Assembly (NCBI GenBank): GCA_002690755.1
Contig: NZFT01000103.1
Span: forward strand, 1-15,668
Length of the DNA: 15,668 bases
Origin: Phycisphaerae bacterium
GTDB lineage: Bacteria; Planctomycetota; Phycisphaerae; Phycisphaerales; SM1A02
Reading direction: 5' to 3'
How positions within the stretch are numbered: position 1 is the first letter of the stretch; each line of letters opens with the position of its first letter. The position numbers and the translations under genes are program-made. The notes under the pieces are model-generated. The model ran no database searches. It saw nothing but the letters and a program-made list of their open reading frames with translations, and was not told where the DNA came from. This document shows, one piece after another, positions 1-11,138 of this stretch.

Positions 1-2
1 CC

Positions 3-476
3 GACGATGCGGTCCGACTCATTCGACACAGCGGATGCGCGGGGGTGATGATCGCCCGGGCCGCGATTCGCGCCCCCTGGCTCTTCCGTCAGGCGGATGC
101 CGCGATCCGACTCGCGGGGCTCGGGGATGCATCCTCCGACGTCAACGACCGGCATCGATGGGAGGCGGCGCGGGCCGAACCGACCCTGCACGAGAAGATC
201 TTGACGATCCGTCGTCACATCGATCTCTGCGCCAACCATCTCGATGTTCGCGGCGCTGCGGAGCTGATGCGGCAGCGGATCTCCTGGTACGGGAAGTCGA
301 TGGGCCACGTGAAGTCGCTGAAGGAGTCGATCCGGACCGCGGCCGACCTGGAATCGATGCAGGCCGCGGTGGACGAGTGGATCGAGTGGGCGGCTTCGGA
401 CCCGGAGGCCTCGACGACGCCGATGGCGTCACGCGGTGCGGGGCCACGGCGTGATCTGGATCCGTCGGTGTCCTGA
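3..476 (+). CDS. tRNA-dihydrouridine synthase, C-terminal part (5' end outside the window)
   Basis: The frame is open from the left edge and gives about 157 residues before TGA at 474-476. The beginning reads GVMIARAAIRAPWLF, matching the end of the FMN-binding TIM barrel of Dus enzymes (usual form G-V-M-I-G-R-A/G-A-x-x-N-P-W-L-F). The tail is helical with a KILTIRRHIDL stretch, RGAAELMRQRISWYGKSMGH and a KESIRTAADLE segment, like the C-terminal helical RNA-binding domain of DusB-type proteins. These enzymes reduce specific uridines of tRNA to dihydrouridine in the cytoplasm using FMN and NADPH. The visible part holds neither the catalytic cysteine nor most FMN contacts, so the subfamily cannot be named. 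An internal GTG at 45 could be mistaken for the start, but the homology runs upstream of it. The last 25 or so residues look low-complexity and unconserved. Confidence 0.85.
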   Translation, partial: DDAVRLIRHSGCAGVMIARAAIRAPWLFRQADAAIRLAGLGDASSDVNDRHRWEAARAEPTLHEKILTIRRHIDLCANHLDVRGAAELMRQRISWYGKSMGHVKSLKESIRTAADLESMQAAVDEWIEWAASDPEASTTPMASRGAGPRRDLDPSVS

Positions 477-533
477 TTTCGATCCGAATCCGCGGTTCGG
501 TGGGGGATGCTCGATTCGCGCGGGCATTTGCCG

Positions 534-539
534 TATCGT
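534..539 (+). promoter_or_regulatory. possible -10 element (TATCGT) for the thioredoxin-like gene
   Basis: TATCGT lies in the 104-base gap between the Dus gene and the thioredoxin-like gene and would give a leader of about 35 bases. At 17-base spacing the -35 position (511-516, TCGATT) matches the sigma-70 consensus poorly, so this is only a weak candidate. The gene also has a plausible Shine-Dalgarno, GGAG at 568-571, nine bases before ATG. Confidence 0.25.
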
Positions 540-580
540 GAGTCGGAACGCAGCATCAACCTCGAACGGAGTCCATCCCG

Positions 581-1216
581 ATGTCAACCGTCCTCGCCAG
601 CATCACGCTCGCCATCTCATCGCTCTGCATCGCCTCCCAGGACGGCGCCGCGAAGCCGACACTGTCTCCGCCGCCCGCGAAGGCGCCGACCGCCGCCGAT
701 TCGAAGACCGCGGACGCCGGCGCTCACGCGAGGATCATGAGCATGTTCGGCGACAAGCTCGAGACCAAGGACGGAACCCTCGTGAACACGAAGGACGTCA
801 TCGCCGGAAAGAAATTCGTCCTCTTGTACTTCACGGCGAGCTGGTGTCCTCCCTGCCGCAAGTTCACGCCCGCCCTGGTGAAGTTCGCGAAGGCGAACCC
901 CGACGCCAAGGACTTCGCGATCGTGGTCGTGACGTCGGATCGAAACGCGTCGGCGCATCAGGGATACATGAAGAAGTACGACATGCCGTTCTACGCGGTC
1001 CCGTACGGCGCGCCCGGGCTTCGCAAGATCAAGCAGACCTACGGTGGCAGCGGTATTCCGAATCTCGTCGTGCTCGGTGAGGACGACGTGGCCATGAAGG
1101 GGTCCTACGAGACCGACGGGAAGTACACCCCGAAGAACCGGCAGAGCTACGTCGGGCCTCAGAAGGTCCTTGCGGCGTTCCCCAAGATGCGGACCAAGGC
1201 CGGTCCCAAGAGCTGA
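581..1216 (+). CDS. secreted thioredoxin-like protein, nucleoredoxin/tryparedoxin type
   Basis: A 211-residue protein. Residues 1-20 (MSTVLASITLAISSLCIASQ) look like a Sec signal peptide, and a Pro/Ala-rich linker runs to about residue 47. The thioredoxin fold follows with FTASWCPPCRKFTP at 84-97. The redox cysteines are C89 and C92 and the cis-proline is in GGSGIPNLVV (P160). The F-T-A-S-W-C-P-P-C-R-x-F-T-P signature is that of the Thioredoxin_8 (nucleoredoxin/tryparedoxin) family rather than classical TrxA or CcmG. It probably acts as a thiol-disulfide oxidoreductase outside the cytoplasm. The native substrate is unknown. The ATG at 581 is supported by GGAG nine bases upstream and by the signal peptide beginning there. 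It is followed by a bidirectional terminator and then a convergent gene, so it is likely the last gene of its transcript. Confidence 0.88.
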   Translation: MSTVLASITLAISSLCIASQDGAAKPTLSPPPAKAPTAADSKTADAGAHARIMSMFGDKLETKDGTLVNTKDVIAGKKFVLLYFTASWCPPCRKFTPALVKFAKANPDAKDFAIVVVTSDRNASAHQGYMKKYDMPFYAVPYGAPGLRKIKQTYGGSGIPNLVVLGEDDVAMKGSYETDGKYTPKNRQSYVGPQKVLAAFPKMRTKAGPKS

Positions 1217-1238
1217 CCCGTTCCATGTTCGACCATCG

Positions 1239-1270
1239 AAGACGCCCCCGGAACATTCCGGGGGCGTCTT
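1239..1270. terminator. bidirectional hairpin terminator between convergent genes
   Basis: AAGACGCCCCCGGAA (1239-1253) pairs perfectly with TTCCGGGGGCGTCTT (1256-1270), a 15-base inverted repeat with only two bases between the arms. The real loop would be slightly larger. It sits 22 bases after the thioredoxin-like stop and 39 bases beyond the hydrolase stop on the other strand. Both sides begin AAGA and end TCTT, so it can serve both convergent transcripts, although the T tracts are short. Confidence 0.85.
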
Positions 1271-1309
1271 GCATTTCGGCCTGAATCGAAAGCGGGCATC
1301 GACTCGGAT

Positions 1310-3835
1310 TCACTCGTCCTTCGGCGTCTCGCGGACCGCGTGATCGTCGCCGAGCGACCAGTCGTGGTCGAAGAACGCGGCGGCCCGGACGCCTTGCAGT
1401 CCCGCGGTCTTCGGTTCGATCGACTCCGGCCCGAAGACCACGAGATCGGGATAGTGCACGCCGCTCTGGAAGATCGGAATCCGCTCGGTCAGCCGCATGC
1501 CGGCGATCCCTGTTCCCGCGACGACGCCGACCGAGACGGTCGCCCAGTCGGGCCGAGGGCGGATCGCGAGCACCGCGAGATCGTCCCCCGTCACTTCGAG
1601 CCCTTCGAAGCGAATTCCCGTGCGATCGATCTCGAGCGGATCGTCCGCGAGCAACTGCGACCATGCGGCATTGGTCTTCTGGTTTCCGTAGAGGATCACG
1701 TTCCGCCGGGGATGCTGCTCACGGTCGAAGTCGACGTCCAGAATCATGTCGAGCACGCCGTTTCCACGGTAGAGAAACGCCTCGGCATCGTGGATGGCCT
1801 TCGCGAGCGTGACTCGGTCCTCCTCCTCGTCTCCCATGGTGCCGACCACGAGGATCGGCTGATGACGGAACACGTCCTTGAACGAACCGTTCCGTTCCGG
1901 CCGCTTCGCCCGCGGGTTGATGACGCCGCGGCGCCGCCAGCCGTCGGGGGTCCGGTCGTAGAACGCGGGCGCACCGCGGCCGTTGAGGAGATCCAGTTTC
2001 GCGTCCGGGCCGACCTGTTCGCCGTCGATCATCACCGTCCAGGCGGGCGCGCGGTCGTCGAGATCGAGCTCGAGGCGGGCCACGTTCTCCGTGAAGATTT
2101 CGATGCGGCCCTCTTCGTCATTCCGCGTTCCCCGCACCCGGGACGGCGCGTTCGCGCGTTGCTGCTGGGCGATTCGGAACCAGTCGCCTCCGGCGTTGAT
2201 GCCCGGCGAGACGGTGGTGAATCGAAACCGATTCCGATCCCGATCGATCGAGCGGTCCTCAAGGAACCGGATCAGTGGCGGCCAGTCGACGCAGCGATTT
2301 CCCCACCAGTGTCCGGCGCCCGGCTCCTCGTGATAGGCGAAGTCGGGATGGGACTCGGCGAGGGACCGTCGCATGGTCCGGGCCTGATCGACGGGGACGT
2401 TGTCGTCGGCGTCACCGTGAAGGACGTAGATCCCGAGTTCGTCGAGGTTGTCCCGGAGCAGGAGGGTGTCGCTCGGATTGGCCGCCCGCGCCATGATCGA
2501 CTCGATCGAATGCGGATCGTCGTCCCCTTCGATCCGGTCTGCGCCGTAGGTGTGGAACGCGATCCAGCCGGCACTCGGCGCGGCCGCCGCGAAACGGTCG
2601 GGGAAGTGGGCCGCGGCCTGCCAGGTTCCGTGCCCACCCATGGAGTGTCCGGTGACCCACTGGCGATCTGGATCGGTGCCCAGCGTCCGTCGGGCGTGGT
2701 CGAGCACTTCCATCGCGTCGAGCCGGCCCCAGTCCTCCCAGTCGAAACCGAACTTGCGTCGGTTGGTCGGCGCCACGACGTGCGCGAAGTCCTTCGGGGC
2801 GTACGCGGCGGCCTGGCGACGGGCGTCGACGCCGGCACCGTGAAGGGTGAGGATGAGCCCGGGACCGCCCGAAGGATCGCCTTCGCGAGGCACCGTGGAG
2901 CTCGGGACCAGTCCGTAGAACTGGACGGAGTCGTCGATCTCGCTCCGGAAGGTCACTCGCCGGGGGGCCGACGGTTCGACGGCCTTGACGTCGAGGGTGC
3001 GGACGTCGACCGGTTCGACGGAACCGGGATCCACGATCTCCACGCGGAAGGTCGCGACGCCCGGAGTCTCCACGGCCGCCGACACGAGCCGGATCGGGAC
3101 CTTCCGGACCGATCCCGGGGGGATCGCGGGCATCGCGCTGGTCGCCGTTTCGCCGCCCGGGCCGGTCACGAGGATGGATCGATCGGGCATCCACTTCGAT
3201 CCGAGGTTCCCGATCACCACGCCGGCGTACGTATCGAGGGGGACGCCGACCACCGCATTCGGGACCGTATCGTCCGCGCCGGTGAAGAAGAAGGTCTTCG
3301 CGACGCCGGCTTCGGTCCGCGGCACGTCCACCAGTCGCGCCTTCACGCGGCCCCGTCCGACCTTGAAGAGGAACTCGTTCTCGCCCGCCTCGAGCATCAC
3401 CGGGAGCCGCAGCGAACCGTTGGCGTAGGGATCACCCGGTCGCGGTGCGCCGTTGACGTAGACCATGGAGTGGCCACGGGCTTCGAGAATCGCGGGACCC
3501 GCCACGTCGCGGTCGACGGTGACCAGCGCGTAGCCCCCGCGAAGCGCGTCATCGGTGAGCCAGCCGCCCTCGCCCGCGGAGGCGGACTGCCAGATCCGCG
3601 GAATCCGTCCGACTAGAACCGCGTCGCCGCCCTCCGGCGTTGCCCAGGATCCATCCACGATGGCCGCCTCGATCGCGTCGGTGTGGACTGGTGATCGACC
3701 ACCCTTCCCGACGGGTTCGATGACGAGGAAGTCCTCGAAATCGGCGATGACCGGCGGCGGATCCGCAAGCGTGGCCCGGTCGGCGAGCACGTGGAGGCAC
3801 GGGATGAGCAGGACGATGGCGAGGGTGCGTGACAT
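1310..3835 (-). CDS. large secreted alpha/beta hydrolase (prolyl-oligopeptidase/esterase type)
   Basis: An 841-residue protein. Residues 1-24 form a Sec signal peptide (MSRTLAIVLLIPCLHVLADR, then ATLA before DPPP). Residues about 30-300 look like beta-rich domains of unknown role, including a segment resembling a carbohydrate-binding or jelly-roll module (LEARGHSMVYVNGAPRPGDP). The catalytic domain spans about 300-530: LILTLHGAG for the oxyanion loop, the nucleophile S398 in GHSMGG, D477 in HGDADDNVP and H509 in GAGHWWG. A C-terminal region of about 300 residues (with NVILYGNQKTNAAW at 712-725) is of a kind often attached to planctomycete hydrolases. The substrate is unknown; peptidase or carbohydrate/acyl esterase are both possible. 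It lies 62 bases after eboF on the same strand. An alternative ATG at 3901 overlaps the eboF stop (ATGA) and would add 22 Arg-rich residues. I prefer 3835 because it gives a normal signal peptide. Confidence 0.85.
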   Translation of the reverse strand: MSRTLAIVLLIPCLHVLADRATLADPPPVIADFEDFLVIEPVGKGGRSPVHTDAIEAAIVDGSWATPEGGDAVLVGRIPRIWQSASAGEGGWLTDDALRGGYALVTVDRDVAGPAILEARGHSMVYVNGAPRPGDPYANGSLRLPVMLEAGENEFLFKVGRGRVKARLVDVPRTEAGVAKTFFFTGADDTVPNAVVGVPLDTYAGVVIGNLGSKWMPDRSILVTGPGGETATSAMPAIPPGSVRKVPIRLVSAAVETPGVATFRVEIVDPGSVEPVDVRTLDVKAVEPSAPRRVTFRSEIDDSVQFYGLVPSSTVPREGDPSGGPGLILTLHGAGVDARRQAAAYAPKDFAHVVAPTNRRKFGFDWEDWGRLDAMEVLDHARRTLGTDPDRQWVTGHSMGGHGTWQAAAHFPDRFAAAAPSAGWIAFHTYGADRIEGDDDPHSIESIMARAANPSDTLLLRDNLDELGIYVLHGDADDNVPVDQARTMRRSLAESHPDFAYHEEPGAGHWWGNRCVDWPPLIRFLEDRSIDRDRNRFRFTTVSPGINAGGDWFRIAQQQRANAPSRVRGTRNDEEGRIEIFTENVARLELDLDDRAPAWTVMIDGEQVGPDAKLDLLNGRGAPAFYDRTPDGWRRRGVINPRAKRPERNGSFKDVFRHQPILVVGTMGDEEEDRVTLAKAIHDAEAFLYRGNGVLDMILDVDFDREQHPRRNVILYGNQKTNAAWSQLLADDPLEIDRTGIRFEGLEVTGDDLAVLAIRPRPDWATVSVGVVAGTGIAGMRLTERIPIFQSGVHYPDLVVFGPESIEPKTAGLQGVRAAAFFDHDWSLGDDHAVRETPKDE

Positions 3836-3844
3836 GATGCCCCG

Positions 3845-3850
3845 AGGGTA
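3845..3850 (-). promoter_or_regulatory. possible -10 element (TACCCT) just before the hydrolase start
   Basis: Read on the minus strand, GGCTACCCTCGGGGCATC precedes the ATG at 3835, with nine bases between TACCCT and ATG. It resembles the elements in front of mgtE and the 111-residue gene (GG-N-TA-N-N-CTC). The match to TATAAT is poor, so this is the weakest member of the group. Confidence 0.25.
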
Positions 3851-3897
3851 GCCGCTTCCTCGGGAGAGGCGCCGGTCCGAACGACCAGCGAGCTTGC

Positions 3898-5292
3898 TCA
3901 TCCGAACATGGTCCCGAGGGCGAGATCGCGAACCGCGGTGCAGGGAACGCGCCCATCCGCCTCGTCGTCGAGGTTCGCCGCGGCGTCGGCGACGAGGACG
4001 CCGTCCCAGCCGAGGCCCTGGTCGATGCGACCATGGGAGCCGCGGACCAGCGTGGGATCGGTCGCGATCACGTCGAGCAGCGTCCGGAAGCCGAGCTTTC
4101 TTCGGATGAGCCGTGAACCGATCGCGAGCTTCGGGAATCGGATCGCTGGATCGACGAAGAGTTCGCGGGGGTCGTAGCCCGGCTTGCGGTGAATGTCGAC
4201 GGTGCGCTGGAAGTCGGGCATCTTCGCGTCGTCGTGCCACCAGTCGTGCGTGAACCAGCGATCGCGGTCGGACACCAGGACCAGGTCGCCGGCCCGGGGA
4301 TGATCGAGTCCGGCGGCGGCGCGGGCTTCGCCCTCCAGGACTTCGGCGACCCCGGGCGTGGAGGCAAGCAGTCGGGCGATCTCGTCCCGGCGGGCGAGTC
4401 CGCCCCGGCCGAGTCGGACGTGGGCGACCTGGTGATCCGCCACCGCGAAGGCGTCCGACGTGCCGGGGTCGACCATCTCGCGGCCCTCTTCCTCCCGCCA
4501 GTAGAGGAGTCCGGCGTCCCGCAGGATCCGGTTCGGGGCCACCGCGTCGGTGACCGGAACGATCCCGTACTCGCTCACCAGGATCGGTTCGACGCCGCGA
4601 CTCGTGAAGTGCTCGAGCAGCCGGGCGACTTCGTGGTCGAGTTCGCGGAGATGCTGCGGGATCTCGGGATGGTCGGGTCCCAGCTTCTGGAGTCCGTAGT
4701 CGAGGTGGGGGAGGTAGACCAGCGCGATCGTGGGCGTGGTGTCGCGCTCGACCTTGATCGCCGCGTCCGCGATCCACCGGGTGCTGCTGATGTCGGCCGC
4801 GGGTCCCCAGAAGCGAAAGAGCGGGAACGGGCCGAGGGCCCGCGTCAGTCGGTCGCGGAGATCGGCGGGCTCGGTCAGGCAGTCCGGGATCTTGCGTCCG
4901 TCAGCCTTGTAGATCGGCCGCGGCGTGACGACCGTGTCGCAACTGGTGTGCATCGCGTACCACCAGCAGATGTTAGCGCAGGTGACGTCGGGATCACGAC
5001 GTCGCGCGGTGTCCCAGAGACGTGCGGCCTGGACCAGTCCGTCGGACTGCTTCCAGAGCGCGACTTCGCCGGATTCGGGATCCATCCAGCCGTTGCCGAC
5101 GATGCCGTGCTCGGCGGGGCCGACGCCGGTGAGCATCGAGGTCTGGACGCTGGTGGTGACCGCGGGCAGGGTCGGGCGCATCGTCCGAACGCCGCCCTTC
5201 TCGCGGGCGAAGGACGCGATGGCCGGGGTGTGCGGACCGATCAGCGCGGGGGAGAGACCGACCAGATCGATGAGGGCGATGCGACGGGGCAT
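3898..5292 (-). CDS. eboF: EboF-like type I phosphodiesterase / nucleotide pyrophosphatase family protein
   Basis: A 464-residue protein with no signal peptide. It belongs to the alkaline-phosphatase superfamily (type I phosphodiesterase/nucleotide pyrophosphatase branch). The N-terminus has D9 in ALIDLVGLSP. The segment MRPTLPAVTTSVQTSMLTG aligns without gaps to the NPP nucleophile region and places T46 as nucleophile, followed by GPAEHGIVGN. D198 sits in YLPHLDYGLQKLGP and a final GSHG carries the last histidine. Unusually, the histidine expected four residues after D198 is Q202, and the canonical SDHG is SEYG (240-243). In ebo clusters the phosphodiesterase-like gene is called eboF, and its substrate is not established. 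It starts 33 bases after the second EboC-like gene and lacks a Shine-Dalgarno, but has a -10-like element six bases before its ATG. Activity could be altered or lost. Confidence 0.85.
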   Translation of the reverse strand: MPRRIALIDLVGLSPALIGPHTPAIASFAREKGGVRTMRPTLPAVTTSVQTSMLTGVGPAEHGIVGNGWMDPESGEVALWKQSDGLVQAARLWDTARRRDPDVTCANICWWYAMHTSCDTVVTPRPIYKADGRKIPDCLTEPADLRDRLTRALGPFPLFRFWGPAADISSTRWIADAAIKVERDTTPTIALVYLPHLDYGLQKLGPDHPEIPQHLRELDHEVARLLEHFTSRGVEPILVSEYGIVPVTDAVAPNRILRDAGLLYWREEEGREMVDPGTSDAFAVADHQVAHVRLGRGGLARRDEIARLLASTPGVAEVLEGEARAAAGLDHPRAGDLVLVSDRDRWFTHDWWHDDAKMPDFQRTVDIHRKPGYDPRELFVDPAIRFPKLAIGSRLIRRKLGFRTLLDVIATDPTLVRGSHGRIDQGLGWDGVLVADAAANLDDEADGRVPCTAVRDLALGTMFG

Positions 5293-5298
5293 GTGTGA

Positions 5299-5304
5299 AT
5301 CGTA
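5299..5304 (-). promoter_or_regulatory. possible -10 element (TACGAT) giving a leaderless eboF transcript
   Basis: The minus strand reads GAGTACGATTCACACATG, so TACGAT ends six bases before the eboF ATG. No Shine-Dalgarno is visible in the 33-base gap. The spacing is identical to that in front of mgtE and the 111-residue gene. No convincing -35 was found, and in this position the element would overlap the end of the preceding operon transcript. Confidence 0.35.
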
Positions 5305-5325
5305 CTCGTCCCCGGTTCGGGACGA

Positions 5326-6363
5326 TCACCCGGGCGAGGAGGTCGGAATTCGCCGGTTCCACCAGCGATCGGTGACGAACATCGCCGTGATGCACAGGAA
5401 GGCGCCGCCGAGCGCGATGCCGCCGAAACGAACTTCGGTGAGTGCCATCAGCCCTGCATCAAAGAGGGCCATCACCGCGATCGACCGAGCCAAGTACCGT
5501 TGGAGCCGATCGGGAAGGTCGGCGAGATCTCGAATCGCACGACGAAGCATGATTGCAAGGGCAATGCACGTGAAGACCGACACGACGATCGCGTAGATGG
5601 CCTGACCGCGGTCGAGCCCGGCGGGTGGCGTCGGGAGCAGCAGGCCGACGAGGCCGCTGCAACCGAGGAAGGGGATCAAAAGCACGTAGGCGACGCGTTG
5701 CGGCATGCCTCGATAGCGTCCCTGCGTGACCCTGACGGGTTCCGCTCGGAATTCGGCTCCACACGGCGAACCGCATTCGGGGCAGGTCGACTGGTCTTCG
5801 AGCACCTGGTGTCGGCATTCGGGACAGGTCGGGGAGGTCGGGTCGAACCGGCCCCACGCCACGAAGCCGGCGCTCACCAGGTGGATGTGGATCACCGTGA
5901 GGAGAAGACAGGCGATGAGGAACTCGGCGCCGCCGGTGCCGAGAAGCGCGTCGAGCGGTTGCGGGATGGCCGCCGCGAAGCCGAGGGCGTAGATCGTGGT
6001 TCGTCGGGTCGCGAATGCGAGAATGGCCGCGAGGCCGCGGCGGCCTCGCAGATCGTCGAGGATCATGATGACCGCGAAGATCATCGCGACGACGCCGCAC
6101 TCGGGACGGATCAGCCACGCGACCACGGTGCCGGCGCCGATCAGCAGGAATCCGCGACCTGAGACGAAGGATGGGTCCTCCGTTCCGACCCGGGGCGTGC
6201 GGACGTCGCCGAGATGGAGAAGGGTCGCGGCCGAGAGCACCAGCAGCGTCGCGACCCAGTCGATGAAACCCTGGATTCCCGACGCGAGCAGAACGCCCGT
6301 GAGCACGTTCGCCCAGGTGATGGGAAGACTTGCGACCGGACTGGGATCGAACCGTGGGCCCAT
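5326..6363 (-). CDS. second EboC-like membrane protein, degenerate UbiA paralogue with zinc ribbon
   Basis: A 345-residue polytopic membrane protein. It is clearly homologous to the eboC product encoded just upstream: SLPITWANVLTGVLLASG matches SNLPTVWTNVLVGVVLSIA near the N-terminus, and RSIAVMALFDAGLMA matches RSIAVLTLFDACIMA near the C-terminus. A four-cysteine zinc ribbon, CPEC-x10-CPEC (C180, C183, C194, C197), sits in the loop between the two membrane halves, with the same spacing as in EboC. The UbiA signature NDxxDxxxD is missing: the equivalent region reads LLHLGDVRTPRVGTEDPSF. It is therefore unlikely to be a prenyltransferase by itself and may be a partner or scaffold of EboC. TATGAT ends seven bases before the ATG at 6363, which I take as the start. 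The ATG at 6375 is an alternative that adds four residues. The gap to eboC is about 33 bases. Confidence 0.75.
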   Translation of the reverse strand: MGPRFDPSPVASLPITWANVLTGVLLASGIQGFIDWVATLLVLSAATLLHLGDVRTPRVGTEDPSFVSGRGFLLIGAGTVVAWLIRPECGVVAMIFAVIMILDDLRGRRGLAAILAFATRRTTIYALGFAAAIPQPLDALLGTGGAEFLIACLLLTVIHIHLVSAGFVAWGRFDPTSPTCPECRHQVLEDQSTCPECGSPCGAEFRAEPVRVTQGRYRGMPQRVAYVLLIPFLGCSGLVGLLLPTPPAGLDRGQAIYAIVVSVFTCIALAIMLRRAIRDLADLPDRLQRYLARSIAVMALFDAGLMALTEVRFGGIALGGAFLCITAMFVTDRWWNRRIPTSSPG

Positions 6364-6370
6364 GGCTCCG

Positions 6371-6376
6371 ATCATA
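6371..6376 (-). promoter_or_regulatory. possible -10 element (TATGAT) before the second EboC-like gene
   Basis: TATGAT on the minus strand matches five of six bases of the sigma-70 -10 consensus and ends seven bases before the ATG at 6363. It overlaps the alternative ATG at 6375, so transcription from it would exclude that start. No good -35 was recognised; it would lie within the 3' end of eboC. Confidence 0.35.
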
Positions 6377-6396
6377 CGGATCCGGGCCTTGTTCCC

Positions 6397-7464
6397 TCAG
6401 GTCCCCGCGATCCGTCGATGGGACCATCGAACCAGGGAGAAACAGGCGATGGCGACGAGGACCCCGATGCCGGCGACGAACCGGGCGTCGGCGGTCGGGC
6501 TCGCGGCCCAGAAGAACGCCATGATGCAGGCATCGAAGAGGGTGAGCACCGCGATGGACCTCAGTACGAAACGACCGACCGCTTCCGGATACCGGGCGAG
6601 GTGCCGAGTCGAGTTCACGAGGTAGGCACCGATTCCGATGCTTCCGATGATGACCGTCGACAGGAACAGGCCTCCGTTTCGCGGCGGTCCCAGCATCAGG
6701 GTGAGGATGAGCAACAAGCCGAACGGCGCGAGCAGGATCAGGGTGGCGGTTCCGTACCAACCCCTTCGTTTCCCGAGCCGTTCGGTGGTGATCGCCACGA
6801 TGCTGTCGGCGTCGCAGGCGGTTCCGCACTCCGTGCAGATGTCGGAATTCTCGGCGATCGGATATCCGCATCGGGGGCATTTCCACCGCGATGACGACGT
6901 CACCTCGTCGCGGGCCACCATGCTGAACGCGGCGACGTGGATCGCGGCGACGCCGCCGATGATCACCGCAATCAGCAGGCCGTCGTCGGCGGGAACGCCG
7001 CGGGGCTCGTTGAGGCACGCCATGCCGAGGATGTAGAGGCCGGCTCGACAGCCGCCCATCAGGAGGACGCTCCACGCCGTACGGGCGTGCAGCGCGTCGT
7101 AGGCGAGCAGCATCAACCCGATGGCCGTGGCCACGCTTCCTGCGATGATGCCATGCATCCAAGGAAGCCCCACGCCGATCCCGAGCAGGACCGTTCCGAA
7201 CGCGATCGCGGCGCCGCGGCTGATCCGTCCCGAAGGGATCGGTCTTCCGGGTCGCTCGCGCCGGTCGATCTCGACGTCGAAGACGTCGTTGAAGACCATG
7301 CCGGCGAGATAGAGACAGGAGCCGGCGGCGATCGCGACGAACACGGCGACGAGACTTGGATCCGAGGGTCGAGCGATCGCGATCGAGAGCACGACGCCCA
7401 CGAGAACGTTGGTCCAGACGGTGGGCAGGTTCGAGATGCGAAGAACCTCGAGCCAGGCCCTCAT
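6397..7464 (-). CDS. eboC: EboC, UbiA-family prenyltransferase with inserted zinc ribbon
   Basis: A 355-residue integral membrane protein. The UbiA signature is intact: N59-D60-x-x-D63-x-x-x-D67 followed by RPGRPIPSGR, which binds the magnesium-diphosphate of a prenyl donor. Hydrophobic segments lie around 14-32, 38-57, 82-102, 106-122, 130-150 and 161-180, and again from about 236 to 345. Between the two groups a loop holds C196, C199, C210 and C213 in CPRC-x10-CTEC form, a classic zinc ribbon not known to me from UbiA enzymes, which are usually about 290-300 residues. UbiA enzymes transfer isoprenyl chains to an acceptor inside the membrane; the acceptor in ebo pathways is unknown. The ATG at 7464 overlaps the eboE stop by four bases (ATGA), so translation is coupled. 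The GXXCPxCG style of ribbon is common in planctomycete proteins. Confidence 0.88.
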   Translation of the reverse strand: MRAWLEVLRISNLPTVWTNVLVGVVLSIAIARPSDPSLVAVFVAIAAGSCLYLAGMVFNDVFDVEIDRRERPGRPIPSGRISRGAAIAFGTVLLGIGVGLPWMHGIIAGSVATAIGLMLLAYDALHARTAWSVLLMGGCRAGLYILGMACLNEPRGVPADDGLLIAVIIGGVAAIHVAAFSMVARDEVTSSSRWKCPRCGYPIAENSDICTECGTACDADSIVAITTERLGKRRGWYGTATLILLAPFGLLLILTLMLGPPRNGGLFLSTVIIGSIGIGAYLVNSTRHLARYPEAVGRFVLRSIAVLTLFDACIMAFFWAASPTADARFVAGIGVLVAIACFSLVRWSHRRIAGT

Positions 7465-8684
7465 CGCGCGTCTTTCCCGTGAACGGATCGGACCAGATCG
7501 CGAAGCCAGCGCAGTTCCTCGGCGATGCCGCTGGCGAGCCCCTCGTCGCCCGCGTACAGGCAGTTGGGCAGGACCTCCCACGCGTAGGTTTCGACCTCGA
7601 TGGTGGGCAGCGGTCCATCGCCCGGAAACGATGCGAGGCATCGTTCGATCTCGGGCCGCGTGCTCGACCAGCCGTTCATGCCCTGCGTGAAGATGGGCAC
7701 GTGGAAGTGGGTTCGCCAGGTACCGGCGGCGACTCGATCCTCGGCTCGATTCGAGATCGCGCTTCCGAGGTCCTCGAAGAATTCCACGTCGCGTGAAGTC
7801 TCGTCACCGGATCGGATCGTCGTCTGGTGGAGATAACGAGGCTCGATGAAGTCGCGGTAGGCGGCGAGGGTCCGGTCCCGTTCGTCGTCGTCCTCGATCG
7901 CGTCGAAGTCGATCTCGATCGCGGAGGAGACCTGGATCTTGCCGATCTCGATCTCGTGTTCGCGGTAGTTCCGCAGCGCCGCGGTCTGCGGCTCGAACAT
8001 CACCGCGGCGTGGCAGACGTCGTGGCACACCCGGAGGTACCGACGGTGGTCGACGTCGTCCGACGGTCGGAACGCGGTTTCGAAGAGGTCGACGACGTCG
8101 CGGCTGGTGTCGAGCACGCAACCGGGCTCGGGCTCGAGGTCGAGATGGATGCAGGTGCCGGTCCGGTCCTCGATCGCGCGGAGTCCCTTCGCGGCTTCGA
8201 CGAGTTGCGCGGCGGCCATGCCCAACGAGCACCCGCATCCCTCGTTGGTGAATGCGGTGCGCCACCCGATGGGCAGCGTCGAGATCGACGCCTCGGCGAC
8301 GTCGTCGGGGAGCAGGTCGACGAGCAGTTCGGCGAGGTCCAGCGTGTAGGCGAGCCGCCGCGGATCGGCCCAGTGGGGTTCGTAGACCGCGTGCTTCACC
8401 ACGTCGGCGTGGAAGTCACCGAAAGGGAATCCGTTGAAGGTCACGATTCGGAGACCGCGGTCGAGCAGGCGATTCCGGAAGTCCTTCGCGCCGCCCGACC
8501 CGCGGAGTTCGCGGGCGGCCGAGGCGGAAAGCCAGAGTCCGAGTCCGAGCGGGGCGTCGGGGTGCTCGTCGCCGGCGACCAGCTCACGGATCCGCGGGGC
8601 GAACCGATCGAGATTCGCCTCGGTCTCCGCGAGGTCGCGGCCCGCGTGCACGTTGGTGCAGTAGGTCGGAAGCCAGTCGGTCAT
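7461..8684 (-). CDS. eboE: EboE, metabolite traffic protein (sugar-phosphate-isomerase-like TIM barrel)
   Basis: A 407-residue protein without signal peptide. Features typical of EboE are YCTNVHAGRDL at 8-18, FNGFPFGDFH at 83-92, the metal-site strand HLDLEPEPGC at 180-189 (E184), VCHDVCHAAVMFE at 219-231, IGKIQVSSA at 247-255, THFHVPIF at 325-332 and EVETYAWEVLP at 363-373. The fold is that of xylose-isomerase-like TIM barrels, with a likely metal site from E184, D222 or H225, H328 and E363 (residue roles inferred from fold, not shown). EboE is needed, together with the other ebo genes, for export of the scytonemin monomer in Nostoc; its reaction is unknown. ATG at 8684 overlaps the eboB stop by four bases (ATGA) and its own stop overlaps eboC in the same way. 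Confidence 0.9.
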   Translation of the reverse strand: MTDWLPTYCTNVHAGRDLAETEANLDRFAPRIRELVAGDEHPDAPLGLGLWLSASAARELRGSGGAKDFRNRLLDRGLRIVTFNGFPFGDFHADVVKHAVYEPHWADPRRLAYTLDLAELLVDLLPDDVAEASISTLPIGWRTAFTNEGCGCSLGMAAAQLVEAAKGLRAIEDRTGTCIHLDLEPEPGCVLDTSRDVVDLFETAFRPSDDVDHRRYLRVCHDVCHAAVMFEPQTAALRNYREHEIEIGKIQVSSAIEIDFDAIEDDDERDRTLAAYRDFIEPRYLHQTTIRSGDETSRDVEFFEDLGSAISNRAEDRVAAGTWRTHFHVPIFTQGMNGWSSTRPEIERCLASFPGDGPLPTIEVETYAWEVLPNCLYAGDEGLASGIAEELRWLRDLVRSVHGKDAR

Positions 8685-9496
8685 CGGGTCGGTTGGACCT
8701 CGATCTTGAAACGTCCGGTCTGGGAGAGGAACTCCAGCGGATTGTCGAAGGAGACCTTTCGGATCGTCGCCTCGAGATGCCCGCGACGTCGCATCTCGTC
8801 GCGACACTTCGGGACCGCCAGCGGGTCGCTCGGACCCCAGTCGCCGGCGGAGTTGATCCAGAGGCGGTCCGTGCCGTGCATCTCGAAGATGTCGGCGGCC
8901 CGCTGCGGGGTGCACTTGGTGTCGGGATAGAGGGTCATGCCCGCCCAGAACCCGCGGTCGAGGACCTCCTTGACCGTGTGTTCCTCGACGTGGTCGATGA
9001 GCACCCGGTTCGGATCGATCACGCCGTGATTCTTGATGGCGTCCATGATCAGACGGGTGCCTTTGCGCTTGTCCTCGAGGTGCGGAGTGTGGACGAGCAC
9101 CATCTGGTTGTGATCCGCGGCCAGCTGGAGATGGGCCTCGAGGATCTCGAGTTCGTTCCGGCTGTTCTTGTTCAGCCCGATCTCCCCGATTCCGAGGACG
9201 TTCTCACGTTCGAGGAACTCGGGGATGATGTCGATCACCTCTCGGGCGAAGACCGGATCCTCCGCCTCCTTGGGGTTGATGCACAGCCAGGTGTGGTGCG
9301 CGATGCCGTACTGGGCGGCACGCTGCGGCTCGGTGTCCGTGAGCACCGAGAAGTAGTCGTGGAAGCCCTTCGGGCTCGAGCGGTCGTAGCCCGCCCAGAA
9401 CGCGGGCTCGGTGATCGCGACGCAGCCGGCGAGCGCCATGCGCTGGTAGTCGTCGGTGGTGCGACTCACCATGTGGACGTGCGGATCGATGTACAT
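8681..9496 (-). CDS. eboB: EboB, TatD-like metal-dependent hydrolase
   Basis: A 271-residue amidohydrolase-superfamily protein of the TatD branch. The metal ligands are in canonical order: D4-P-H6-V-H8 at the N-terminus, E105 in GIGEIGLN, H136 in LVHTPH, H169 in LIDHVEEHT, and D219 in NSAGDWGPSD. The length is normal for TatD proteins. No signal peptide is seen, so it should act in the cytoplasm. TatD enzymes are nucleases or related hydrolases, but the ebo version is placed among small-molecule genes and probably acts on a pathway intermediate. The ATG at 9496 shares one base with the stop of the preceding gene (TGATG), and its stop overlaps eboE, so it is part of a tightly coupled unit. Confidence 0.9.
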   Translation of the reverse strand: MYIDPHVHMVSRTTDDYQRMALAGCVAITEPAFWAGYDRSSPKGFHDYFSVLTDTEPQRAAQYGIAHHTWLCINPKEAEDPVFAREVIDIIPEFLERENVLGIGEIGLNKNSRNELEILEAHLQLAADHNQMVLVHTPHLEDKRKGTRLIMDAIKNHGVIDPNRVLIDHVEEHTVKEVLDRGFWAGMTLYPDTKCTPQRAADIFEMHGTDRLWINSAGDWGPSDPLAVPKCRDEMRRRGHLEATIRKVSFDNPLEFLSQTGRFKIEVQPTR

Positions 9497-9831
9497 CAGC
9501 CTCGTCCTCCCTGGCTCGCTTCATCGGGACGGAACCCTTCCCAGGCGCCGGACGCGCCCTTTCCCGGGGCGACGTCGATCGGCTGATCCGTGGTGTCGCT
9601 CAACAGGGCGAGGATCCGTCCGGTCCGGCCGGGCTCCCCGTCCAGCATCAGCTCGATCGCGGCGCGGAGGCCGGTCAGTCGGAAGTCCTCGGTCGCATCG
9701 TCGCCCGGGGTCGCCCGGTCGACCCGGTCGAAAAACGCCGCGACGTCGAGGACCTTCGCCCGGTGTTCGAGAAAGTAGCGGTCGACGACTTCGCGCCGAT
9801 TCAACGGGAGTGGCGGGGGGCTGGTTGACAT
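9496..9831 (-). CDS. unrecognised 111-residue protein at the head of the coupled ebo genes
   Basis: A small soluble, charged protein. Residues about 11-75 are predicted helical (REVVDRYFLEHRAKVLDVAAFFDRVDR, split here for length as RREVVDRYFLEHRAK then VLDVAAFFDRVDRA; later LRAAIELMLDGEP). The C-terminal 30 residues are Gly/Pro/Asp-rich. I do not recognise a family. It occupies the position before eboB where eboA could be expected, but EboA proteins are about twice as long, so I do not assign that name. It is coupled to eboB by a TGATG junction, which argues that it is a real and co-expressed gene. ATG at 9831 lacks a Shine-Dalgarno, but TAGACT ends six bases before it. A role as an accessory or adaptor protein is a guess from size and context. 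Confidence 0.75.
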   Translation of the reverse strand: MSTSPPPLPLNRREVVDRYFLEHRAKVLDVAAFFDRVDRATPGDDATEDFRLTGLRAAIELMLDGEPGRTGRILALLSDTTDQPIDVAPGKGASGAWEGFRPDEASQGGRG

Positions 9832-9837
9832 GTCCAG

Positions 9838-9843
9838 AGTCTA
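9838..9843 (-). promoter_or_regulatory. possible -10 element (TAGACT) giving a leaderless transcript of the ebo core
   Basis: The minus strand reads GGCTAGACTCTGGACATG, with TAGACT ending six bases before the ATG at 9831. It closely resembles GGGTACACTCGCGGCATG in front of mgtE. It lies in the only sizeable gap (143 bases) inside the cluster, so it would be a second promoter driving the 111-residue gene and everything downstream, independent of eboD. Confidence 0.45.
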
Positions 9844-9850
9844 GCCGCGA

Positions 9851-9878
9851 ACGGCGCAACCGCCGTCGGGAGACGGCG
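9851..9878 (-). repeat. overlapping inverted repeats (alternative hairpins or operator) upstream of the ebo core
   Basis: Three complementary segments share one arm: ACGGCG (9851-9856), CGCCGTC (9861-9867) and GACGGCG (9872-9878). The centre can pair with either side: six base pairs around CAAC, or seven around GGGA. On a read-through eboD transcript these would be mutually exclusive hairpins. At the DNA level they lie directly upstream of the TAGACT element, where an operator could be. No T tract follows, so a simple terminator is unlikely. Confidence 0.45.
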
Positions 9879-9974
9879 TGGTCGGCCATGATCCGACGTC
9901 GAAGATCGGGAGGAATCCACTCGGAACGGCGACCGCGGCCGGAAGCCCCGGTCCGCCGTCGCCACCACGGGGAT

Positions 9975-11138
9975 TCAAGCCGGGGCGTTCGACTCGAGGT
10001 GGGCGATCGAACGACGCAGGCGGTCGAGGTCCATCTCGTGGACGTCCACGCCGTGCCCGATGCCCTCGAGCAGGGTGACCGTGAGCCGGCCGCCGAGGTG
10101 CTCGCGGAACTCTTCGAGGCCCTCGATCAGCCCGGTATCCAGAAGCAGGGGGTCGAAGACGGGCAGGCCGAGCCGCACCGTCGTGTCCACGATGCGGTCG
10201 AGTGATCCACGGTCGAGGCGTCCGTCGACATGGGAGTAGGCGGCGTCGAGGCAGACGCCGATCGCGACCGCCTCCCCGTGGGAGCGTTCGAAATCGCTCA
10301 TCGACTCGAGTCGGTGGGCCGACCAGTGACCGAAATCGAGGGGCCGGGCCTCGCGCCGTTCGAAGGGATCGCCGCTGTTCGCGATGTGTCGGAGGTGAAG
10401 CTCCGCGCACCGATGGATCACGGGGCGGGAGACGTCCAGATCGCGTTCACGGATTCCATCCGCCGCGTCTTCGATTTCGCCGAAGAACGCCGCGTCCTGC
10501 AGGCAGGCGATCTTGACCGCTTCGCTGAAGCCCTCGGACCAGCGCCGGTCGCCGAGGGTCTCCAGCATTCGTTCGTCGCAGATCACCGCCACGGGCACGT
10601 CGAAGGCGCCGACGAAGTTCTTCTTTCCGAATCGATTCACGCCGTTCTTCACGCCGATCGCGGCGTCGAGCTGGCCCAGCACGGTGGTCGGGAACCGGAT
10701 CAGGCGGACGCCGCGGTGTGCGGTGCTGCTCGCGAAGCCCACTGCGTCGATGACCGCGCCTCCGCCGAAGACCGCGACGTACGACCGTCGGTCGATGCGG
10801 TGTCGTTCGATCGCGTCGAGCATGCGGTCGATCACGGCGGGATCGTTCTTCGCGGCCTCGCCGCCCGGCACTTCGAGGATCTCGCGGACGTCGGGGAGAT
10901 GCGGCCGGTCGAATCGCCCGCGGATCGCATCGTGGATGCCGGGGGTCTTCGCCGCGAGGCCGGCGTCCACCGCGACGATCATGCCGGCCCGGGGTTCATC
11001 CGTCGGAGCGTCCGCGAAGATCCGGTCGATGGTCGGGTTGTCGATGGCCAGCACGTCTCGATCGAAGATCAGCCGATGCGTGAAGCGCACGTCGAAGTCG
11101 TCGTTGATTTCGGTGGCCGTGATGTTCTTTGGAGACAT
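9975..11138 (-). CDS. eboD: EboD, sugar-phosphate cyclase (3-dehydroquinate-synthase-like)
   Basis: A 387-residue cytoplasmic enzyme of the 3-dehydroquinate-synthase superfamily. It shows GGGAVIDAVGFASS (NAD-binding, 125-138), RFPTTVLGQLDAAIG, GVKNGVN at 162-168, GKKNFVGAFDVP, and the metal ligands E206 (SEGFSEAVKI), H271 (DFGHWSAH) and H287 (SHGEAVAIG). True AroB has GGKTGVN in place of GVKNGVN. The GVKN form and the GHWSAH motif fit the EboD/sugar-phosphate-cyclase branch, whose members can cyclise other sugar phosphates such as sedoheptulose 7-phosphate. The substrate here is unknown. The ATG at 11138 has no strong Shine-Dalgarno; a GTG twelve bases upstream is an alternative. Its stop is followed by a 143-base gap before the rest of the cluster. 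It is separated from the upstream protease by a strong terminator. Confidence 0.88.
   Translation of the reverse strand: MSPKNITATEINDDFDVRFTHRLIFDRDVLAIDNPTIDRIFADAPTDEPRAGMIVAVDAGLAAKTPGIHDAIRGRFDRPHLPDVREILEVPGGEAAKNDPAVIDRMLDAIERHRIDRRSYVAVFGGGAVIDAVGFASSTAHRGVRLIRFPTTVLGQLDAAIGVKNGVNRFGKKNFVGAFDVPVAVICDERMLETLGDRRWSEGFSEAVKIACLQDAAFFGEIEDAADGIRERDLDVSRPVIHRCAELHLRHIANSGDPFERREARPLDFGHWSAHRLESMSDFERSHGEAVAIGVCLDAAYSHVDGRLDRGSLDRIVDTTVRLGLPVFDPLLLDTGLIEGLEEFREHLGGRLTVTLLEGIGHGVDVHEMDLDRLRRSIAHLESNAPA

Follow-up and report, generated by a model that had tools for sequence, protein, structure and literature searches.

An eboG-type ebo operon with a tandem, motif-less EboC paralogue in a Phycisphaerales-type planctomycete

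Two types of ebo operon are described that resemble the cluster presented here. The eboA-type operon of cyanobacteria and Bacteroidetes is linked to scytonemin export in Nostoc (PMC6282210). In the operons of Deinococcus, eboA is missing and a short gene is named eboG instead, a variant described in a 2016 survey (PMC5133447). The present cluster lies on the minus strand of a window of 15,668 bases from a Phycisphaerae bacterium, the first part of contig C101 (39,255 bases) in a metagenome bin of 3.47 Mb (G000; 88.8% complete, 5.9% contamination). Seven genes read from 11138 to 3898 in the order EboD, a 111-amino-acid protein (EboG), EboB, EboE, EboC1, EboC2 and EboF. The sequences identify it with high confidence as an eboG-type ebo operon of the order D-G-B-E-C-F, complete as such without EboA. 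The preferred reading, with a probability of about 0.55, is that the eboG-type operon of Phycisphaerales-type planctomycetes was elaborated in one genus, with EboC2 as a non-catalytic partner of EboC1.

The eboG-type operons on two Deinococcus plasmids (NZ_CP140100, NZ_CP097151) have the same six components in the order D-G-B-E-C-F; a 'hypothetical protein' of 108 or 112 amino acids follows EboD. Window and Deinococcus proteins are 58–60% identical for EboB, 53–54% for EboF and 35–40% for EboG. Deinococcus has one EboC without a zinc ribbon, whereas the window encodes the zinc-ribbon protein EboC1 and, in addition, EboC2. Homologues of EboB, EboC, EboD, EboE and EboF are common to the window and the eboA-type operon, but the window has EboG, EboA was not found, the gene order differs and no scytonemin genes were recognised in the window. 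EboC1 shares the superfamily and the first Asp-rich motif with the UbiA-297/EboC prenyltransferases (PMC9235831); the zinc ribbon of EboC1 and the lost motif of EboC2 set the window apart. EboC2 also differs from solved UbiA enzymes, among them the archaeal DGGGP synthase (7bpu, 6m31, 4od4), by lacking the catalytic motif, and alignments with these structures showed 8–12% identity. The operon and its eboG variant were already known. The tandem EboC2, with the predicted fold and the zinc ribbon kept and the Asp-rich motif lost, is a new elaboration in one genus.

Operon composition and conservation

EboB, EboC, EboD, EboE and EboF are encoded together. The initial annotation had recognised these five on one strand at 3898..11138, several with overlapping stops and starts, and the reading frames confirmed the coordinates and the strand. 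EboD (9975..11138, 387 amino acids, start codon ATG at 11138) is a sugar-phosphate cyclase or 3-dehydroquinate-synthase-like protein matching Pfam DHQ_synthase and NCBIfam PRK06203 (455.2 bits, cut-off 333). EboB (8681..9496, 271 amino acids) is a TatD-like metal-dependent hydrolase (Pfam TatD_DNase, 38.1 bits, cut-off 27) and EboE (7461..8684, 407 amino acids) a xylose-isomerase-like TIM barrel (NCBIfam equivalog TIM_EboE, 401.8 bits, cut-off 250). EboC1 (6397..7464, 355 amino acids), a UbiA-type prenyltransferase with an inserted zinc ribbon, reached 80.1 bits on Pfam UbiA (cut-off 34.2). EboF (3898..5292, 464 amino acids, stop at 3898) is a type I phosphodiesterase/nucleotide pyrophosphatase (Pfam PF01663, Phosphodiest, 188 bits, cut-off 23). 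The recognition thus held at NCBIfam cut-offs for EboE and EboD and at Pfam cut-offs for EboB, EboC1 and EboF. The overlaps noted initially were seen as TGATG between eboG and EboB and as ATGA at the EboB/EboE and EboE/EboC1 junctions. The spacing is about 140 bases from EboD to eboG, 21 bases between EboC1 and EboC2 and 33 bases between EboC2 and EboF.

The small protein (9496..9831, 111 amino acids) had no match among the Pfam or NCBIfam models. Its profile matched the small proteins of two Deinococcus and one Gemmatirosa ebo clusters with a probability of 99.8% (E 1.3e-29). It is called EboG because those of Deinococcus stand at the same place in operons for which PMC5133447 names eboG; it is taken for EboG by operon and taxon, not by a match to published EboG sequences. 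An identity as EboA or an EboA fragment was ruled out: the probability against an EboA profile of two sequences (Roseivivax, Streptomyces) was 0.1%, and the EboA model, which scores 153 bits on Roseivivax EboA, matched none of 61 genomes (the own genome and 60 relatives) and no control genome. The cluster therefore combines an EboG-like short protein with ebo genes and lacks the EboA that characterises the eboA type; the completeness claimed by the initial annotation holds for the eboG type, without EboA. The EboB identities fit the eboG-type assignment, as pairwise values and not as an EboB tree: 58–61% to EboB of the Deinococcus and Gemmatirosa plasmids, 44% and 48% to that of the EboA-bearing Roseivivax and Streptomyces clusters. 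The predicted EboG structure has three main helices and a low-confidence tail, with a mean predicted local distance difference test score (pLDDT) of 80.4. A fold search gave three matches, at E 7 or worse. A protein-database search found 4,699 EboG homologues at E <= 0.001, and none of 120 among the matches listed had a Pfam domain.

Among the 61 genomes, eboG and EboB occur in an identical set of 47. EboF is also present in 47 and EboE in 43. In 46 of the 47, eboG immediately precedes EboB on the same contig and strand, and their match ends are separated by no more than 137 bases; the sole exception is G022, where the two are apart. A chance association is excluded by this joint occurrence and adjacency. 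The small protein, regarded initially as an extra, is thus a conserved EboB partner. All six genes D, G, B, E, C and F stand in window order on one strand at one locus in 29 of the 47 EboB-bearing genomes, counting G005 with an EboF truncated by the contig end. In the remaining 18, the order is broken by contig ends or the genes are apart (rearrangement). Two genomes of genus g50, outside the 61, share the order with the Deinococcus plasmids. When 149 genomes spread evenly over the phylum were sampled, the own genome among them, 20 had the small protein. The three Planctomycetes of the 2016 survey are given there as without ebo gene clustering (PMC5133447), so the conserved planctomycete order adds to prior knowledge.

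Some relatives have insertions at the ebo locus. Between EboB and EboE, G008 (L113:5903-8254) encodes two proteins: one is an efflux transporter of the DHA2 type (TIGR00711, 261.8 bits, cut-off 230.2), the other resembles class-I glutamine amidotransferases; this pair would fit a metabolite-export role. G033 has a methyltransferase-like frame at the same place (L084:6339-8228), and gaps were seen there in L110, L115 and L120. In six g57 genomes (L183, L190, L199, L206, L211, L236), EboC and EboF are separated by about 1 kb, at first considered a sign of a second EboC elsewhere in the family. This was rejected: the gaps hold a protein of 267–308 amino acids, and the one compared had no similarity to EboC2. 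The N-terminus of these proteins resembles, by eye, a lipoprotein signal; the two proteins checked had no Pfam match, and similar open reading frames stand behind EboC in more g57 loci. A gap of 715 bases was seen in G163.

Behind EboF, an alpha/beta hydrolase (1310..3901, minus strand; Pfam Peptidase_S9, 52.8 bits, cut-off 22.6) is joined by an ATGA overlap. It lies 3' of EboF in some relatives, for example G001, G006, G013, G020 and G033, and is a possible operon member, though not an ebo protein. An extra eboF copy on contig C79 was rejected as a sign of a second ebo cluster. C79 represents a strain variant, matching window positions 1–5276 at 99.92% identity, and stops inside eboF at the matching end point 5276; the bin is redundant.

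EboC1, EboC2 and the zinc ribbon

EboC1 has the UbiA domain and carries the intact motif NDVFDVEIDRRERPGRPIPSGRI; this first Asp-rich motif (NDVFDVEID) of the NDxxDxxxD pattern is encoded at 7264..7290 (minus strand), with coordinates from the reading frame. Directly behind ARDEV, the loop CPRCGYPIAENSDICTECG has a two-knuckle zinc-ribbon pattern (CPRC...CTEC, 6826..6879, minus strand; Pfam Zn_Ribbon_1, 23.8 bits, slightly below the cut-off of 25). Its position after helix 6 presumes the usual UbiA loop topology. EboC2 (5326..6375, 349 amino acids) is a degenerate tandem paralogue of EboC that belongs to the UbiA fold by its predicted structure. It has a zinc ribbon (CPEC...CPEC, 5773..5826, minus strand; 22 bits on Zn_Ribbon_1, cut-off 25), and the four cysteines are invariant in alignment A7. 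The Asp-rich motif is absent from the window copy and from all 22 EboC2 homologues, and the RPIPSGR stretch behind it is missing from the copies aligned in A7. R125 of EboC2 and other positions are invariant across EboC1 and EboC2 in this alignment. The initial annotation's ebo-type cluster with two EboC-like proteins in a planctomycete is thus present, but the second protein has lost the catalytic motif of a prenyltransferase.

EboC2 was detected in six of eight genomes of the window genus (g1) and not outside the genus; species genomes were scanned with two peptide patterns reaching close relatives only. Five further bins contain copies, one of them truncated at a contig end, and 22 protein clusters came from a database search that scored the candidates sharing most words. 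The arrangement, initially called distinctive, is so by the tandem EboC2; the small protein is part of the known eboG type. EboC2 is under purifying selection. Pairs within the genus, G007 aside, had ratios of nonsynonymous to synonymous substitution (dN/dS) of 0.20–0.30 (NG86) or 0.13–0.17 (YN00), in the range of the EboC1 pairs; YN00 values came from part of the pairs and NG86 values were obtained without some EboG pairs. The EboC2 sequences form one clade (support 100/100) with a stem of 2.19 changes per site (1.64 in a first EboC tree). Judged from the tree, the long stem marks a burst of change that later gave way to constraint. The duplication may be older than the split of g1 and g50; the long stem blurs the position of EboC2 relative to EboC1 and the g50 EboC.

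One close relative appears to have lost EboC2. In EboB, EboE and EboF, G006 differs little from G007 (dS 0.37–0.41), while EboC1 of G006 is 49–52% identical to all other EboC1 (dS 1.14–1.44) and looks replaced by a divergent copy. Beside it lies a pseudogene, an EboC2 remnant interrupted by a stop and a frame change and shortened by a large deletion; its pieces most resemble EboC2 of G007 (67% over 45 and 57% over 37 residues). Decay of EboC2 beside a replaced EboC1 is what a partnership of the two would predict, as a single event. A metagenome protein of 270 amino acids, P0023, reads as an EboC2 start joined to an EboC1 end and would stem from recombination or assembly error.

The zinc ribbon extends beyond the window genus. 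The pattern is present in the equivalent EboC loop of 29 of 105 other family genomes (5 of 25 and 24 of 80, one being a fragment; of the 126 family genomes that match EboC, 18 stayed outside the count). Ten genomes of the order from outside this family, one of them represented by a fragment, and six plasmids from other phyla have EboC without it. In g57, some species have it and others do not. Among the protein-database matches listed, again from a search that scored the candidates sharing most words, 56 of 119 EboC1 homologues carry it. The first EboC tree needs six state changes for the zinc ribbon, two of them forced by well supported branches.

Function of EboC2 and of the cluster

The proposed pathway would start with EboD, converting a sugar phosphate to a cyclic polyol. 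EboE and EboB would modify this product, and EboC1 would prenylate it at the membrane to a lipid-linked compound. EboF may act on a phosphate-bearing intermediate, and EboG may be a small adaptor acting with EboB. The lipid-linked compound would serve in making a metabolite or in moving one to the periplasm. EboC2 would have lost catalysis and pair with EboC1, perhaps via the zinc ribbons; as a non-catalytic subunit it would offer a dock for soluble Ebo proteins or shape the pocket that takes up the substrate. That EboC2 is non-catalytic yet functional is held with moderate confidence, its exact task with low confidence. A two-subunit UbiA-type prenyltransferase of EboC1 and EboC2, with one subunit dead and zinc ribbons after helix 6 in both, which would make this ebo step hetero-oligomeric, is a tentative extension.

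A lipid-linked or cyclitol-like product, as proposed in the initial annotation, is plausible. A role of EboD in the shikimate pathway is less likely because contig C12 encodes a separate aroB-like protein (290 bits against the aroB cut-off of 305). Plasmid clusters of Streptomyces (L143:2390-3544) and Halobaculum (L144:4493-5692) combine EboB-like genes with an inositol-3-phosphate synthase and have no annotated EboD, a hint that the shared product may be a cyclitol. The initial annotation saw no scytonemin genes, and this stands for the window. A genome search, which covered the ScyD/ScyE family and not other scy genes, found one ScyD/ScyE-family protein on a different contig from the ebo cluster (G000:C46:16116-17045, 146.5 bits, cut-off 80). 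This family is broad, with matches in 5 of 14 control genomes, over the cut-off in two.

EboC2 might instead have a separate membrane job without binding EboC1, for example as a component of a carrier or flippase that handles the lipid-linked product. This is rather unlikely, though it draws on several observations: the long stem leads to shorter branches, which points to a new function, the Nostoc ebo mutants are reported as blocked in metabolite movement to the periplasm (PMC6282210), and relatives carry other operon insertions such as the transporter of G008 and the 267–308-amino-acid protein of g57. The retained UbiA fold, the zinc ribbon and the place directly behind EboC1 argue against it, and decay of EboC2 where EboC1 looks replaced is not predicted by a fully independent function. 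It is improbable that EboC2 has remained an enzyme whose altered chemistry dispenses with the Asp-rich motif. The invariant R125 and other shared positions would agree with it, but the motif missing throughout the EboC2 homologues is reported to bind Mg and pyrophosphate in this enzyme group (PMC9235831), and RPIPSGR is gone from the aligned copies as well. A decaying gene or an assembly artefact of the metagenome bin is very improbable: contamination, a near-duplicate contig, the decayed copy of G006 and the chimera-like P0023 speak for it, whereas the copies in other bins and protein clusters, dN/dS well below 1 and the invariant cysteines speak against. For the cluster as a whole, the synthesis of a finished secreted metabolite, with no export or carrier role, is possible but doubtful. 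All parts save EboG and EboC2 resemble enzymes, and the Pseudomonas edb cluster has been regarded as the source of a nematode repellent (as cited in PMC6282210). The Nostoc work favours a helper role, as every ebo mutant described there makes the scytonemin monomer and retains it in the cytoplasm (PMC6282210).

Several points weigh against EboC2 as a non-catalytic partner of EboC1 in an elaborated eboG-type operon. The partnership is argued from tandem position, co-retention and the single loss event in G006, and a literature search found no experiment on any planctomycete Ebo protein. The structure model of EboC2 is of moderate confidence (pLDDT 70.6, predicted template modelling score 0.70), and a Foldseek search on its own found nothing at E <= 0.001. 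Zinc binding by both ribbons is predicted from the cysteine motifs, with Pfam scores slightly below the gathering cut-off. The ribbon is patchy among relatives, even within g57, which implies more than one gain or loss and means that EboC can do without it. EboC2 of G007 is 49–50% identical to the others and under weaker constraint (NG86 dN/dS 0.39–0.50). EboC1 matches the NCBIfam EboC model partially, with 137 bits below the cut-off of 250; Deinococcus EboC likewise falls below it (96 bits). Moreover, the module is not always whole: family f5, which belongs to the order, retains EboB and EboG together, but EboE was found in two of six genomes and the other genes are scattered.

Ebo operons are widespread. 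The many planctomycete eboG-type clusters in one gene order indicate a conserved version of the operon in which EboG belongs to the core components rather than being a passenger. The pair of EboC1 and EboC2, together with its natural loss in a close relative, offers a handle on the cooperation of EboC with its soluble Ebo partners. Where a UbiA protein without the motif is conserved next to an intact one, nature would provide a test of whether such enzymes use inactive subunits.

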